Counted from the stretch's first letter, positions 1 to 11,000 are shown. The stretch: 64,000 bases of DNA from Sheuella sp. (GCA_030650995.1 JAUSCY010000078.1:40200-104199); one strand, 5' to 3'. Program-made: numbers and translations. The notes: a model not told the origin generated them from the letters alone.

Positions 1-723
1 GTCGTGCCAATCGTGAACGAAAACGATACTGTCGCTACCGATGAAATCGCTGTGGGCGATAACGATACGATGGGCGCACTGGTCACAAACCTGATCGAAG
101 CTGATGCCCTCATTATCCTGACAGACCAACGCGGTTTATATGAGGCAGATCCTCGCCGCGATCCGAAGGCGCGTTTTGTCTCACACGCCAAAGCCGGCGA
201 TCCTGCCCTGGAAGCCATGGCAGGCGGCACCGGAAGTGGGATCGGCAAAGGCGGTATGCTGACCAAGATCCTTGCTGCCAAACGTGCGGCACGCAGTGGT
301 GCGCATACGATCATTGCCTCGGGCCGTGAGCAGGATGTCATGATCCGACTGGCCGCAGGCGAGTGTATCGGGACGGAGTTACATGCCGACGTCCCTGTCC
401 TGTCCGCCCGTAAACAATGGATGGCAGATCATTTGCGTCTTCCTGGCAAGCTGATCCTGGATCAGGGTGCTGCCAACGCTTTGCGTACAGAAGGCAAAAG
501 CCTTTTACCGATAGGGGTAAAAAGTATAGAGGGCGAGTTTGAACCAGGCGATGTTGTCGCTTGTCTGGATCCACAGGGCAAAGAATGTGCCCGTGGACTG
601 ACCAACTACTCTTCGTCCGACGCGCGTCGGATCATGGGTCAGCCTTCATCGAAAATTATGGATATTCTGGGTAGCGTGAGTGAAAAAGAGCTTGTGCACC
701 GGGACAACCTGATCGTTCTCTGA
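1..723 (+). CDS. proB: Glutamate 5-kinase, C-terminal part (5' end outside window)
   Basis: [15 protein letters not shown]...FGDND-like kinase core, [23 protein letters not shown] motif, C-terminal PUA domain; open at window edge. Confidence 0.93.
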
Positions 724-743
724 GGATTGCGCAGCAGGAAATA

Positions 744-2441
744 CTAAACCTGAGCTTGCAAGTGCTCCGTTTTCGCAATCGAACGAAGCGGTAATTCAAT
801 GTAAAAAATCGCCCCGCCCGCTGGAATGTTTTCTGCATGAATTTTCCCTCCATGCGCGTGCACAATACGACGGCAAATTGCAAGCCCGAGCCCTGTTCCA
901 CCTGAGCCATCTTTTGTCAGACTCGACTGCACGAATGGCTCAAAAATATGCTCAAGCTCTTTTTGTGGAATGCCGCAGCCCTCGTCCTGCACATAAAAAC
1001 GCAAACTATCAGAACTGAGCATCTCCAGGCCAACGATAATTTTTTGACCTGCCTGCGAAAATTTCAATGCATTGGCGACGACATTGCGCAATACCTGATG
1101 AATCCTGATCGCATCGGCCAGCATCATCACAGGCGCGTCAGGCATACACTTAAATAACTTCACCGATCTTGCACTTAGCAGTGGTGCCAATTCCTTTTCC
1201 ACCTCATCAACCAACTGCCTGGCATCGACCCGGGTGAAATCCGCCTCGGAAAAAGCACTGTCGATTTTTGAAATATCCAGTAAATCATTGACCAGCGTAA
1301 GCATGCGCTGTCCTGAAGTGTGAATGTCGTTGAACATTTCCGATACTTTCGGCTGCTCCTGCGTGCGCATTAAGCCTAATTCAGAGAACCCCAGGATAGA
1401 CTGTAGGGGCGTACGCAACTCATGGCTGATATTGGCGATGAACTCTTCCTTGGTTCTCGCAGCTTCCCGGGAACTGCGCCATGCAATCCTCGCCATGACA
1501 ATAATGACGGTGAATGCCAACGCTCCGACAAGAACAAACCAGGACAGCAATCTAAACCAGTCGTTCCAGACTGCCGACATGGGACGCTCCACTAGCGACA
1601 CGAGAGGCCAGGCGCGTGAAGTACGGACAGAAACAATCTGCTCGCCCTCACCTGCGCCGGTGCCGATGTATGTACCTTGGGCACGGGGTTTGAGTTGATC
1701 GATGATTTCAAGATGACCCGCTAGCGTTGTACCTAGTGGTAGCACTTGTGGGTAGCTCGCAATGACATCCCCGGTATAAGAGGTCAGGACGGCTGAAAAA
1801 TCAGACTCTCCAAGCGCAACCGCTTGAAAATTAGCAAAAAAATCAGGGTTCAACATTGCCACCAGATACAAAGTCCGGGCATCATGCGTCAGCACCCTGC
1901 GAATCAGGGGGAGTGCAAAAATCTTCAGCGACTCCGCTGACGGCTGGCGACCGGATGACAGATACTCCAGATAGCGCACGGGAATCAAACGCGATAAAAC
2001 GGGAGCATCGTTGACGGGCAACACACCAAACATTTCCAGATTGATGCGCTGATCTTGCTCCCCCTCGCGACTCGACATCACAATCAGCCCTGAGCTATCG
2101 ATTAAAGCTAAGCTACGGATTGAAGTCAGGGAGCCGACTGTTTGCAACGCAGGTGCCCGCAATCTGCTGCCAGAAGCCTCAGTGCTAGCACGTACGGTCT
2201 CTGAGAGATCCGCCAGCGCCAAGGCTGCGACATCGAGTGTACGCACAGCATGATCATCGAGCAGGCGGGCAAATAACTCTGCACGGTGCCTGTCATTACG
2301 GATGATTTCATTTTTTTCGTACCAGACAATCCAGCCAACCAAGAACGCGACAATAAGCGAGATGACCGTCACAAACCACATGCCCTGACGTGTCAGTGGA
2401 GTACGGGTTTCGAGTGTGGTCAAGATGCCTGGCCTCATCAT
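744..2441 (-). CDS. Membrane sensor histidine kinase (TM - periplasmic Cache-like domain - TM - HisKA - HATPase_c)
   Basis: SHELRTPLQSI H-box, N/G boxes (NALKFS, DEGCGIP, GGTGLGLAICRRIV), two TM segments around a periplasmic region; start set at the MMRPG Met just after the upstream gene stop (the ORF track start is 2522). Confidence 0.88.
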   Translation of the reverse strand: MMRPGILTTLETRTPLTRQGMWFVTVISLIVAFLVGWIVWYEKNEIIRNDRHRAELFARLLDDHAVRTLDVAALALADLSETVRASTEASGSRLRAPALQTVGSLTSIRSLALIDSSGLIVMSSREGEQDQRINLEMFGVLPVNDAPVLSRLIPVRYLEYLSSGRQPSAESLKIFALPLIRRVLTHDARTLYLVAMLNPDFFANFQAVALGESDFSAVLTSYTGDVIASYPQVLPLGTTLAGHLEIIDQLKPRAQGTYIGTGAGEGEQIVSVRTSRAWPLVSLVERPMSAVWNDWFRLLSWFVLVGALAFTVIIVMARIAWRSSREAARTKEEFIANISHELRTPLQSILGFSELGLMRTQEQPKVSEMFNDIHTSGQRMLTLVNDLLDISKIDSAFSEADFTRVDARQLVDEVEKELAPLLSARSVKLFKCMPDAPVMMLADAIRIHQVLRNVVANALKFSQAGQKIIVGLEMLSSDSLRFYVQDEGCGIPQKELEHIFEPFVQSSLTKDGSGGTGLGLAICRRIVHAHGGKIHAENIPAGGAIFYIELPLRSIAKTEHLQAQV

Positions 2442-2448
2442 GGACACC

Positions 2449-3312
2449 TCACCTGACAACCATGGGTGCCATACCGTGCTGTTGGGCAGCGCGCTCAAGA
2501 CGACCGTCTCGCTTGATCGCATCCACGAACTGGTTCACCCTGTTGAGCCATTGCTGATCGCCGGGCTTGATCGCATAGGCATAAGGCATGACCTCTCGAT
2601 GGGTATCAGGCGAAATGAGTCGGATCGCGTCATTGCGGTCCAGCACGCGTCGGCCGTTCGGATAATCTGTCATGAACACGTCTATACGCCCCGACAGCAA
2701 CTCTTTTTCCCTGTTCATGGGAGGTCGCACAACCACAACAGAGGCTTGTTTCAAGCTATCGAGCATGATTGGCTCCATGAAACTTCCGGCCTGAACACCC
2801 ACAACGACGCCTGGCCGATCAATATCGTCCCAGTATTTGATTTGTCGTTGACCCTTTGTCGTAATTGCATATATGCCACTTTGCATATAAGGCGTGGAAA
2901 AGGCTAGCAACTGGGCCCGGGGTGCGATCGCGGCAATCGCAAACATGGCGATTTCACACCGACCAGATAACAAGTCCTCAACCAGTGTTCTGAAAGAAGA
3001 ATCTATATAAACCAGATCAACACCCAGATCGGTGGCCAGGGCGTGGGAAAGATCGATGTCAATCCCGCTCAGCGCACGCGTATGTGGATTGCGAAAGGTC
3101 ACGCCATAGTATTCGGGCCAGATGCAGACCCTTAACTGGCCAGCGTCACGAATCCTCGCCTCGGTACCCGCAGCGCAAACACTCGCTGCACCCCAGGAAA
3201 AAACGCACAGGATGCAAAGCCATCGCAAAATTGTGTGACGATCCGGTTTTGATATGGTGTGTAGACAATACATAAATATATTGAGCCTGATTAGTCGAAC
3301 CTGTCGACGCAT
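2449..3312 (-). CDS. Extracellular solute-binding protein family 3 (periplasmic), start uncertain (3273 also possible)
   Basis: Signal peptide-like segment, then LRVCIWPEYYGVTFRNPHTRALSGIDIDLSHALATDLGVDLVYIDSSF...GRCEIAMFAIAAIAPRAQLLAFSTPY, typical SBP_bac_3. Confidence 0.87.
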   Translation of the reverse strand: MRRQVRLIRLNIFMYCLHTISKPDRHTILRWLCILCVFSWGAASVCAAGTEARIRDAGQLRVCIWPEYYGVTFRNPHTRALSGIDIDLSHALATDLGVDLVYIDSSFRTLVEDLLSGRCEIAMFAIAAIAPRAQLLAFSTPYMQSGIYAITTKGQRQIKYWDDIDRPGVVVGVQAGSFMEPIMLDSLKQASVVVVRPPMNREKELLSGRIDVFMTDYPNGRRVLDRNDAIRLISPDTHREVMPYAYAIKPGDQQWLNRVNQFVDAIKRDGRLERAAQQHGMAPMVVR

Positions 3313-3405
3313 GCAGGCATCATAATCTGCCTCTACGTACCATTTGTAGTATATATTTCATCTTCCTACGCTTATCAGACGGCTTTTTGATATACAGTAC
3401 TTTTC

Positions 3406-4053
3406 ATGCCCTTAACTACTGCATCCGTCCTGACTACCTCGACTGCCGACGACCTATCTACGATAGAGGTCGCGCAAATGCTTGGTATGGCAGTCCGGTC
3501 TGTTCAGCTAATGGTTGACCGGGGTGAAATCCAGGCCTGGAAAACTTCTGGCGGTCATAGGCGTATTTCAAGACAATCTGTCGCGCAATGGCTTGCCTCG
3601 CGCCAGTCAACCCATGTCAACAGCGCACAGACACCCAGAGAGTCAACTTTCAGTCCAGACGGCACGGCTGATTACAAAATACTGCTCATCGAAGATTCCA
3701 CGCATTTTCAAAATCTGGTGAGCCTGCTCGTCCAGCAGCATTTCCCTGCAGCGAGTCTGCACTTGGCGCACGATGGCATTTCCGGACTCGCAAAATTCGG
3801 ACAACTTCAGCCAGATTGTCTATTGGTTGATATATTGCTCCCCGGCATTGATGGGGCCACACTGATCACGACCCTGAAATCGGATCCTTTGTTTGCAAAC
3901 TGTCATCTGGTCATTGTCACCGGATTAAGTCCTGAACAGCTTGAGCCGTATGCGTTCGCCCTGCAGGGTCTGCCGATCATCCATAAAACAAGAATTGCTC
4001 TGGACCTGGTTCCTCAGCTGTCTCGAGCCATCACCCAGCAAGCTACCGCCTGA
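3406..4053 (+). CDS. Response regulator with N-terminal excisionase/MerR-like HTH and C-terminal receiver domain
   Basis: STIEVAQMLGMAVRSVQLMVDRGEIQAWKTSGGHRRISRQSV (HTH_17/excisionase), then KILLIEDS...LLVDILLPGIDG...IHKT receiver. Confidence 0.85.
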   Translation: MPLTTASVLTTSTADDLSTIEVAQMLGMAVRSVQLMVDRGEIQAWKTSGGHRRISRQSVAQWLASRQSTHVNSAQTPRESTFSPDGTADYKILLIEDSTHFQNLVSLLVQQHFPAASLHLAHDGISGLAKFGQLQPDCLLVDILLPGIDGATLITTLKSDPLFANCHLVIVTGLSPEQLEPYAFALQGLPIIHKTRIALDLVPQLSRAITQQATA

Positions 4054-4058
4054 CGGTC

Positions 4059-4784
4059 ATGGCTGTTTTGTCACAACAAGTTTTATTGCTGGAAGACGAT
4101 CCTTTAATGCAACGGTTTGTTTCTCTTGCGCTAGAGGACGAGCCGCTGGAACTGACTTGTTGCAGCAGTGTTTCCCAGGCCATGCAAGCCATTGAACAGC
4201 ATGCTTTTGACTGGATACTGACAGATTTGATGCTGCCTGGAGAGTCGGGTCTGCATTTCATAGAAAAAATTTCTTTAATGCCAGAGCTGCTTGGACCGGC
4301 ACGGATCGTGGCGCTCAGCGCAGGGATTGATCTCGTCATGCAGGACAGGCTCACTGAGCTCGGCGTTAAACGCCAACTGCTCAAGCCCGTTTCTGTAAAA
4401 GTACTGCAAGAGCTTTTGCGGTCAGGCTTGGAACACGCTGAGCCGCCAGACAGGACGCTCAGTACATGCTCAACAGTCATAGAAACTTACTTTGGCGGGC
4501 AGGCTGACTTATATGAAAAATTTTCGCAGCAGTCACGCCTGCAGTTTGCACAGGACATCTACGATGGTGAGCGCGCCGTTCAAGAAAAAAACAGTGCTGC
4601 ATTGCACAATAACGCCCATAGTTTGAAGTCAGTCCTTCTCCTGCTAGGAGAGGCGAACGCCCATCAGTGTGCTGAAACCCTTGAAAATCTGACAGGATCA
4701 GCTGATTTTTCCACGCAAGCAGCGCAGGAATGGCAAAAATTGAAAAATCACTTAATTGTTCTGGCTGTCGATCAACCACACTGA
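4059..4784 (+). CDS. Receiver domain fused to C-terminal Hpt phosphotransfer domain
   Basis: LLLEDDPLMQRFV...WILTDLMLPGESG...QLLKPVS receiver; NNAHSLKSVLLLLGEANA Hpt motif. Confidence 0.83.
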   Translation: MAVLSQQVLLLEDDPLMQRFVSLALEDEPLELTCCSSVSQAMQAIEQHAFDWILTDLMLPGESGLHFIEKISLMPELLGPARIVALSAGIDLVMQDRLTELGVKRQLLKPVSVKVLQELLRSGLEHAEPPDRTLSTCSTVIETYFGGQADLYEKFSQQSRLQFAQDIYDGERAVQEKNSAALHNNAHSLKSVLLLLGEANAHQCAETLENLTGSADFSTQAAQEWQKLKNHLIVLAVDQPH

Positions 4785-4832
4785 CACGGCGAGAATGATG
4801 TGCAATCGGCCAAGAAGTCCTATACTTCGATG

Positions 4833-6888
<2,056 letters not shown>

Positions 6889-6897
6889 GCCCTAGTT

Positions 6898-6935
6898 CCT
6901 CCTGAACACTTATCGTGTTCGGGAGGGCTATTTCT
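6898..6935 (+). terminator. Terminator-like hairpin after thiC
   Basis: CCTCCTGAACAC-ttatc-GTGTTCGGGAGG, 12-bp stem with one G.U, followed by a weak T-rich tract gctatttct. Confidence 0.6.
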
Positions 6936-6946
6936 GTCTGGATCCC

Positions 6947-8047
6947 ATGCAAAAAACATCACGCCTTGCATTCATAGACGCCATGAAGGGCGTGGGTTGC
7001 ATCGCGATTGTCCTGCATCACCTTGCAATTTATGGACCGATGTCGGAAGTGGTTAGTCAAGTTGCACCCAACCTCATTGAAGGACTGATTCTCTACGCAA
7101 GACTAGCCGTACAAATGTTTTTTGTGCTTGCTGGTTTTATGGTTGCCAGCCAGATGGCGCCAGAGGGTCACACGGTTTTCAGAGCACCCGCTTCATTAAT
7201 CTGGAAACGCTACAAACGTCTTGTCACGCCATTTCTGTTTGCAGTGGCTTGCGCCACGCTCATCACAGCAATCGTGCGCCCCTGGTTCGTCCACGATTCA
7301 CTGTCTGACGCACCAAGCATCGCACAGTTACTTGCGCACGCATTCCTGATGCACGATCTTCTTGATCTGCAGGCCTTGTCAGCGGGCGTATGGTTTGTCG
7401 CGATCGATTTTCAATTGTTTGCGGCAACGGTGCTGATGACAGCGCTGATGCATCGCACATCAGAAAAATGGCGTGCGGCGTTTCCCATCCTGATTATTTT
7501 ACTTTCTGCAATTTCATTGTTTGCCATCAACCGTTACAGCGCCTACGAAAACTATGCGCCTTACTTTTTTGGTGCATATGGACTGGGCATGCTGTCGTAC
7601 TGGTCAACGCGTCCCGCGCGGGCTGGCGTAGGACTGGCCGTCATCTGCGTACTCAGTGTGATGGCCCTGATACTGGAATTTCGTTCTTCTATTTCTGTCG
7701 CATTCGCCACTGCGGTGCTGGTGAGCATTGCAAGCCAGACAGGCTGGCTTGCACGCTGGCCCAAACCGGGCTTACTGACCTGGCTCGGACATCGTTCCTA
7801 TTCGATCTTTTTGATTCACTATGGTGTCTGCATCGCGTTCAATGCAGTCTGGAGCAAATTATTTCCAACCGGTGTCGTGATCAATGCACTCGGCATGCTG
7901 GCTGCAGTGCTTGCCTCCGTCGGTGCGGGGGCACTCCTTTATCGCTATGTCGAAAGTCAGCAAGGCGTCATTGGGCGTAACAAAAAGACATCCTTGCTGC
8001 TTGCAGTGGTCATCGCAGCCCTTGTGATTGAAAGCATCACCTGGTAG
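6947..8047 (+). CDS. Acyltransferase 3 family membrane protein (OafA/YrhL-like)
   Basis: RLAFIDAMKGVGCIAIVLHHL, multiple TM segments, LTWLGHRSYSIFLIHYG. Confidence 0.88.
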   Translation: MQKTSRLAFIDAMKGVGCIAIVLHHLAIYGPMSEVVSQVAPNLIEGLILYARLAVQMFFVLAGFMVASQMAPEGHTVFRAPASLIWKRYKRLVTPFLFAVACATLITAIVRPWFVHDSLSDAPSIAQLLAHAFLMHDLLDLQALSAGVWFVAIDFQLFAATVLMTALMHRTSEKWRAAFPILIILLSAISLFAINRYSAYENYAPYFFGAYGLGMLSYWSTRPARAGVGLAVICVLSVMALILEFRSSISVAFATAVLVSIASQTGWLARWPKPGLLTWLGHRSYSIFLIHYGVCIAFNAVWSKLFPTGVVINALGMLAAVLASVGAGALLYRYVESQQGVIGRNKKTSLLLAVVIAALVIESITW

Positions 8048-8055
8048 GTGGCGGA

Positions 8056-11000
8056 CTAACCCAGACTAGGGGCCAGTGACCGCTTCACGTCCTCCATACT
8101 GCGTCCTGAGCGCGCGACATAATCCTGCACCTGATCTTCACCAATTGTGCCGACGTTGAAATAATGCGATTGCGGATGGCTGAAATAGAAACCAGACACA
8201 CTCGCTGCAGGATGCATCGCATAGCTTTCGGTTAAAAGCATACCGATATCAGAACCATCGAGCACCTCGAACATTTCTTTTTTGACTACGTGCTCGGGAC
8301 AAGCAGGGTAACCAGGAGCAGGACGAATACCTTGATAACCTTCCTTGATCATTTCCTCGTTGGACAATGACTCATCCGGCACATAGCCCCACAAATCCGT
8401 ACGGACACGTGCGTGCAATGCCTCAGCAAAGGCTTCGGCCAGGCGGTCAGCCAGAGACTTGAACATGATTGACGAATAATCGTCATTTGCTTTCATAAAC
8501 TCCTGCTCTTTTTTCTCTACCCCGAGACCAGCGGTCACAGCGAAGAGCCCGATGTAATCCATCACGCCAGAGGATTTAGGTGCGATGTAATCAGCCAGGC
8601 ACTTATTTTCAACACCTTCGCGCTTGACACCCTGCTGGCGTAAACCACGCCAGGTAAATAAAACTTTCTGACGCGTCTCGTCCTGATAAATTTCGATGTC
8701 ATCATCATTGACGGTATTGGCAGGATAGAACGCCATCACACCGTTCGCAGTGAGCCAGCGCCCATCCACGATACGTTTGAGCATGGCCTGACCATCAGCG
8801 AATACTTTTTTAGCCTGCTCACCAACGACTTTGTCCTCGAGGATTGCGGGGTACTGACCAAACAAACTCCAGGTCTGAAAGAAAGGTGTCCAGTCAATGA
8901 AACGTGCGAGTTCAGCCAGATCAAAGTTCTTGAACGTACGACGCCCAATAAATTTGGGACGTGGCGGTGTATAGTCTGACCAGTCAATCGCAGGCTTCGC
9001 TGCGCGGGCACTCGTGATTGAAATCAGCGGTGTCGCTTTACGACTGGCATGCCGGCGGCGTACTTCCTCGTATTCGACTGTGAGTTCTTCGAGATAGGTG
9101 TTAGCTGTCTCCGAGACCAGATTTTGCGCAACGCCTACAGAACGGCTGGCATCCGGCACATAAATGACAGGGCCTTCGTAATGCGGTGCAATTTTGACTG
9201 CGGTATGCACGCGGCTCGTAGTCGCACCACCAATCATGAGAGGTATTTTGCGGCTGCGGAAATATTCATCACGCTGCATCTCGCTTGCTACGTAAGCCAT
9301 TTCTTCAAGGCTAGGCGTGATCAGTCCTGACAACCCCACAATATCAACGCCTTCAGCTTTGGCACGCGCAAGAATTTCTGCGCACGGCACCATCACACCC
9401 ATATTGATGACTTCAAAGTTATTGCACTGAAGCACCACTGTAACGATGTTTTTACCAATGTCGTGGACGTCGCCCTTGACCGTCGCAATCAGGATTTTTC
9501 CCTTCGCGCGCACATCACCACCCGCGGCAGCAATGTGTTTCTTTTCCTCTTCGATGAAAGGAACAAGATGACCGACCGCCTGCTTCATGACACGCGCAGA
9601 CTTCACAACCTGCGGCAGAAACATTTTGCCCTCGCCAAACAGATCACCGACGATATTCATACCATCCATCAAGGGACCCTCGATGACCTCAATCGGGCGA
9701 CCGCCCCGATCAGAGATCTTCTGACGAATCTCCTCAGTGTCTTCGATAATAAAATTCGTCAGGCCGTGAACCATCGCATGCGCGAGTCTTTTCTCAACCG
9801 GCTGCTGACGCCAGGCAAGGTCTTCCTCACGTTTGATACCACCGCCCTTGACACTATCGGCAAAGGCCACCAGTCGTTCGGTCGGCGTTCGTGTGTCACC
9901 AGCCTCTTTACGTCCAAGAGGCTGTGCACGATCCAGCACCACGTCCTCGACCAGGTCACGCAATACGGGATCAATCTCGGCATATACGCCCAGCTGTCCG
10001 GCATTGACGATGCCCATCGACATCCCTTCGCGAATCGCGTAATACAAAAATACCGTATGGATAGCCTCTCGCATCGGCTCATTACCACGAAACGAAAAGC
10101 TCACATTTGAGACACCACCTGAAATACGCGCATGGGGGAGGTGCTCACGAATCCACTTGGTAGATTCAATAAAGTCGACAGCGTAATGGTTGTGCTCATC
10201 AATGCCTGTGGCGATCGCAAAGACGTTTGGATCAAAAATAATGTCTTCAGGAGGAAATCCGACCACCTCAACCAGCAATTTATAAGCACGCGAACAAATA
10301 ATCTGGCGGCGTTCATACGTATCGGCCTGACCTTTTTCATCAAAGGCCATGACAACCGCAGCAGCGCCATATTTACGGCATAGCTGTGCTTGTCGCAAGA
10401 AGGGCTCCTCGCCCTCTTTCAGCGAGATCGAATTGACGATCGGCTTACCCTGCACGCACTTCAGTCCCGCCTCAATCACGGACCATTTTGAACTGTCAAT
10501 CATGACAGGCACACGGGCGATATCCGGCTCAGAGGCGATCAGGTTCAGGAAGCGATGCATGCAGGCCAGCGAATCCAGCATGGCCTCATCCATGTTGATA
10601 TCGATAATCTGGGCACCGCTTTCAACCTGCTGTCGAGCCACCGCGACGGCCTCGTCATACTTCTCCTCGCGAATCAGACGTGCAAACATTTTGCTGCCGG
10701 TCACGTTGGTACGCTCACCGACATTAATGAACAAGGAGGCATCGTCAAAATTCAGTGCTTCAAGACCGGACAGACGTGTCTTGACTTCGATCTCGGGCAC
10801 AACACGAATCGGCAATGCGCATACTTTTTCTGCAATGGCACGCACATGATCCGGCGTAGTACCGCAACATCCTCCCGCCATATTCACGAGACGAGATTTG
10901 GCAAACTCTTCGAGCAATGCTGAAGTATCAGCAGGAGTTTCATCAAATCCCGTCTCGCTCATCGGATTAGGCAGACCCGCATTCGGATATACGCAAACAT

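Follow-up and report, generated by a model that had tools for sequence, protein, structure and literature searches.

BvgS and EvgS combine SBP_bac_3-type, HisKA/HATPase, receiver (REC) and Hpt domains in one chain (PMC4352136; PMC8534201). In Pseudomonas, the Roc system (RocS1/RocA1/RocR) has one SBP_bac_3 kinase that serves both a transcription factor and an EAL phosphodiesterase, and gene loss leaves partial loci (PMC12051241). TorS, which responds to TMAO, belongs to the fused unorthodox kinases and senses through a domain made up entirely of helices, and LuxQ of Vibrio quorum sensing employs a double PDC domain for sensing together with LuxP (PMC8534201). The LuxP-LuxQ-LuxU-LuxO chain leads from a free periplasmic solute-binding protein (SBP) and a double-Cache/PDC kinase via a separate Hpt protein to a separate regulator. 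LuxQ also carries a receiver of its own, LuxU consists of an Hpt domain only, and LuxO is a sigma-54 activator; BvgA and EvgA, the regulators served by BvgS and EvgS, are LuxR-type proteins with a C-terminal HTH.

The window, a 64,000-nucleotide stretch of Sheuella sp. DNA, contains a four-gene sensory locus of which no description was found among open-access papers. A preliminary description had read it as a BvgS-type phosphorelay split into separate proteins. The modules are indeed those of BvgS and EvgS, including a separate DNA-binding receiver protein, and most relatives of the window kinase also possess PAS. However, BvgS and EvgS fuse the Venus-flytrap (SBP_bac_3) domain to the kinase, whereas the SBP of the window is a separate ORF of 287 aa and no SBP_bac_3 match in the genome lies in an open frame of more than 410 aa; their kinase, receiver and Hpt form one chain, whereas the receiver-Hpt protein of the window stands alone with 241 aa. 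Furthermore, the window kinase has a separate, Cache-type sensor of its own, four loci with an orthologous kinase contain no SBP, and the layout is more similar to that of LuxP/LuxQ/LuxU. The free SBP, the double-Cache kinase and the Hpt protein preceding a separate regulator all have their counterpart there. In contrast, LuxP is of the sugar type (LuxP/ribose-binding class), while the window SBP belongs to SBP_bac_3 and is closest to amino-acid-binding proteins; and where LuxU and LuxO act, the window has a receiver fused to the Hpt and an HTH_17-receiver protein as output. TorT-TorS resembles the locus in that a free periplasmic binding protein works with the kinase.

With Roc, SBP_bac_3 and PAS sensing, HisKA, REC and Hpt modules are shared, but a single RocS1 chain comprises SBP, PAS, kinase, REC and Hpt, whereas all are separate proteins here. 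The output domain of RocA is GerE, and RocR carries EAL; in the present system the output is HTH_17, and a phosphodiesterase (HD-GYP) occurs only in relatives. It is this HD-GYP branch of the relatives that resembles the joint encoding of transcription-factor regulator and c-di-GMP phosphodiesterase regulator in Roc; no Roc-type receiver-linked c-di-GMP phosphodiesterase was found in the window locus. By analogy, LuxPQ-LuxU appears to be the nearer functional parallel, and Roc the nearer module parallel, than a split BvgS. Judged by its sequence, the window system would work like Lux, Roc and BvgS-type systems while belonging to none of them, as a new arrangement of known parts; the arrangement of this familiar bacterial signalling chain is probably undescribed.

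Layout, domains and distribution

ORF calls and Pfam matches agreed with the previously noted four genes at 744-4784, arranged as two divergent pairs. The sensor histidine kinase (744-2441, minus strand, 565 aa) comprises a first transmembrane segment, a double-Cache-like periplasmic domain, a second transmembrane segment, HisKA (with His340) and HATPase_c; an alternative upstream start of its ORF is located at 2522. Seven bp separate its ATG from the gene for the free periplasmic, family 3 (amino-acid type) SBP (2449-3312, minus strand), which carries a putative signal peptide. Across a divergent intergenic (promoter) region of 93 bp (3313-3405) follows the gene for HTH-REC (3406-4053, plus strand, 215 aa), in which HTH_17 (excisionase/BldC-type) is fused N-terminally to a receiver with the phospho-acceptor Asp142, and, after a gap of 5 bp, that for REC-Hpt (4059-4784, plus strand), with Asp56 and His187. 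The block is flanked by proB upstream and thiC downstream (named from their sequence); neither is an ABC transporter gene, which bears out the earlier statement that no permease or ATPase is adjacent. At the Rfam gathering threshold, no match was found in window positions 1-9000. Upstream of thiC (4829-4927, plus strand), a TPP riboswitch scored 46.5 bits (E = 2e-8) and so stayed below the gathering score of 54.3; the reason is that it lacks one of the internal stem-loops of the aptamer model, and the examined congeners share this shortened form.

The kinase matched HisKA (E = 2.6e-20) and HATPase_c (1.4e-29), its catalytic region was closest to the TorS NCBIfam model, and H340 as well as the catalytic motifs were invariant in 30 orthologues. 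The Cache match was weak (dCache_1, E = 0.03), but dCache_1 was recognized in 17 of the 30 orthologous kinases, with a best value of 9.4e-9; the kinase is thus predicted to have its own periplasmic double-Cache-like sensor domain. Neither a receiver nor an SBP_bac_3 domain was found in the window kinase with Pfam, and neither was PAS, as opposed to 28 of the 30 orthologues. When both structural models were submitted to Foldseek, matches were mainly to receiver and kinase core, which left the sensor and Hpt domains unclassified.

The gene for HTH-REC was present in 6 of 32 genomes of the genus and in 75 of 301 sampled genomes of the family containing Comamonadaceae, but across the order no more than 3 of 399 sampled genomes had it, the window's own genome included. 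Of 74 distinct HTH-REC loci, 47 contain an orthologous kinase (three loci scored as kinase-less, L030, L034 and L037, are cut by contig ends, which makes absence there uninformative). Among the 47, an Hpt adjoined HTH-REC in every case and the SBP was present in 43, confirming that the four genes co-occur; in gene content, this is the LuxPQ-like pairing of a free SBP with a kinase of the double-Cache type. The divergent order (kinase, SBP, gap, HTH-REC, REC-Hpt) recurs throughout Comamonadaceae and was kept in nearly all of the loci, across families.

Proposed phosphotransfer along the locus

Both receivers are canonical, with acidic pair, phospho-Asp, Thr/Ser and Lys all present. In HTH-REC (HTH_17, E = 1.3e-11; Response_reg, 4.2e-10), E96, D97, D142, T172 and K194 were invariant in 27 of 27 orthologues; in REC-Hpt (Response_reg, 1.1e-16), the same was true of D56, K109 and H187 in all 36 orthologues. 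The Hpt match of the window protein itself (0.004) would alone be below the cut-off, but PF01627 was matched by 34 of the 36 orthologues, the nearest PDB chain to the Hpt profile is 1sr2 (the Hpt of RcsD/YojN), and the AlphaFold model has a helical C-terminal domain (helices 133-237, mean pLDDT 91.8). The C-terminal half of REC-Hpt is thus an Hpt, a helical bundle with a phospho-His in the motif HxLK(S/G), and it is the only convincing one in the genome. Over its full length, REC-Hpt can be aligned to the REC-Hpt tails present in kinases of the SsrA, LetS and TorS types, and the kinase core aligns with the part of TorS that precedes this tail, as expected of a detached tail.

From the relay residues and the linkage of the genes, both of which are established, we infer a well-supported topology that matches the one proposed previously and in which all four acceptor residues are conserved. 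The secreted SBP would bind an amino-acid-like ligand and, either free or loaded, dock on the Cache-type domain of the kinase and set its activity. The kinase would autophosphorylate on His340, from where the phosphate would be passed to Asp56 of REC-Hpt, then to His187 of the Hpt and finally to Asp142 of HTH-REC, which would bind DNA through its N-terminal HTH_17 domain. We favour this distributed multistep phosphorelay with moderate confidence.

The direction from Hpt to HTH-REC is favoured because in one clade of eight loci (L100, L102, L115, L117, L124, L127, L129 and L136) neither the kinase nor the receiver half remains, yet a stand-alone Hpt still adjoins HTH-REC; the donor kinase for these Hpt proteins would have to be encoded elsewhere in the genome. 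L144 likewise has an Hpt only, yet together with kinase, SBP and a stand-alone receiver. One locus, L090, speaks against the proposed direction, because the receiver of its REC-Hpt is degenerate despite the presence of kinase and HTH-REC. The same locus would fit a simple two-component pair, in which the kinase phosphorylates HTH-REC directly and REC-Hpt serves as a phosphate sink or as a link to another partner (stand-alone receiver, HD-GYP or chemotaxis proteins). The fully canonical receiver of HTH-REC, a kinase lacking its own receiver, and the 11 of 71 loci in which HTH-REC has neither a kinase nor an Hpt nearby are also consistent with such a pair. That the Hpt was never lost from a kinase-bearing locus, and that it alone was kept beside HTH-REC where kinase and receiver disappeared, speaks against such a pair, and we consider direct phosphorylation fairly unlikely.

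The solute-binding protein

In the proposed relay, the SBP (SBP_bac_3, E = 9.4e-22) would be the co-sensor. Its closest counterparts are amino-acid-binding proteins together with the ancestors reconstructed for them. The nearly invariant Arg132 and Asp216 align with an Arg and an Asp that are conserved among amino-acid SBPs and bind the amino-acid backbone in this family. Cys63 and Cys119 are invariant in all 28 aligned orthologues and perhaps form a disulfide. Among solved structures, cyclohexadienyl dehydratases, both ancestral and modern, come nearest, but the protein was treated as a binding protein rather than an enzyme: it matched the reconstructed ancestors AncCDT-1 and AncQR, which are amino-acid-binding proteins, equally well, and where 5jos has the Glu of its 'TDTVEA' motif, the window protein has Asn and most relatives have Tyr.

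All 10 matches to HEQRo-type permeases in the genome fall into six loci, each with its own SBP_bac_3, and so the SBP is considered an orphan; no unpaired polar-amino-acid (HEQRo) permease was found in the genome, which is about 91% complete. The orphan status supports the earlier suggestion that the SBP may be a ligand co-sensor and not part of a transporter. This suggestion is weakened by four kinase-bearing loci without the SBP (L044, L090, L114 and L141), from which it follows that an SBP encoded at the locus is not indispensable to the kinase. The SBP might instead serve a transporter elsewhere or be a co-transcribed scavenger, with the kinase sensing its ligand directly via the Cache domain; Cache domains are able to bind small ligands unaided. 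Adjacency alone is weak evidence: AgtS and the SBPs encoded next to it were found not to interact, and activation of AruS is not assumed either (PMC11113362). Still, the SBP accompanies the kinase in 43 of the 47 loci, in most of these 43 directly beside it, across families and with differing flanks. This, and the fact that no HEQRo permease is left without a partner in the genome (about 91% complete), renders a role outside sensing improbable.

Inheritance and variation of the block

In the window and in L029, L042, L043 and L044, the block is located between proB and thiC, which are adjacent (about 200-300 bp apart) in 8 of 8 examined congeners without it; copies in Comamonadaceae have different flanks, with neither proB nor thiC nearby. 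As the block is present or absent as one piece, it is a real unit, passed on together in many environmental bacteria. The HTH-REC sequences of the genus form a single clade, and correlations between the distance matrices calculated for the four proteins were r 0.64-0.83 (p 0.001), although shared species history could give the same correlation. That unrelated signalling genes became neighbours by chance, for which nothing but the commonness of these domain families speaks, is refuted by this presence or absence in one piece and by the conservation of order and orientation across families, and its probability is close to nil.

The four genes co-occur, as the preliminary description of them as one relay would have it, but they are not the full system, because in most relatives a stand-alone receiver, an HD-GYP phosphodiesterase or both are encoded in addition. 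Between SBP and HTH-REC, on the minus strand, a stand-alone receiver gene was found in 31 of the 47 kinase-bearing loci, an HD-GYP gene in 26 and both in 21. Since most relatives harbor one or the other there, the relay probably branches at the divergent gap. Downstream of REC-Hpt, CheW and/or chemoreceptor genes were present in 13 of 47, mostly within 3 kb of HTH-REC; this neighbourhood may partly stem from shared ancestry. These additions in the relatives are new. CheW and methyl-accepting chemotaxis genes were observed downstream in L098, L103, L108, L113, L144 and others, whereas in L109, L123 and L140 HTH-REC is followed by an MCP (a PAS-MCP in L109) without a kinase. Two further loci carry additional genes between stand-alone receiver and HTH-REC, a second, 900-aa PAS histidine kinase in L101 (3687-6386, plus strand) and a protein of 345 aa that weakly matches HATPase_c in L143 (7283-8320, plus strand).

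In the window copy, neither a stand-alone receiver nor HD-GYP is present in the 93-bp gap, and no chemoreceptor was detectable in the genome, while HD-GYP-type domains do occur elsewhere in it. The window copy, having no PAS, stand-alone receiver or HD-GYP, is a pared-down version, and the change may have been loss in the window lineage or gain in the relatives. In Comamonadaceae, the unit would probably also feed the stand-alone receiver and the HD-GYP c-di-GMP phosphodiesterase; the window lineage would have the branch from sensor to transcription alone. It is possible, and proposed here only tentatively, that the loci constitute an undescribed modular phosphorelay family, with SBP, Cache kinase, REC-Hpt and HTH_17-receiver as separate proteins in one cassette, and that in Comamonadaceae, stand-alone receiver plus HD-GYP form a second, c-di-GMP output branch with a link to chemotaxis genes, which the window lineage does not have.

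If the relay operates as proposed, an amino-acid-type SBP sensor would be tied to transcription and to c-di-GMP and chemotaxis in a widespread environmental family in which these regulators appear uncharacterised. The locus family would then offer a natural series running from intact to partly dismantled relays, in which SBP, PAS, REC, HD-GYP and kinase are variously present or missing, and the role of each module could be read from gene loss across the loci and directly tested.
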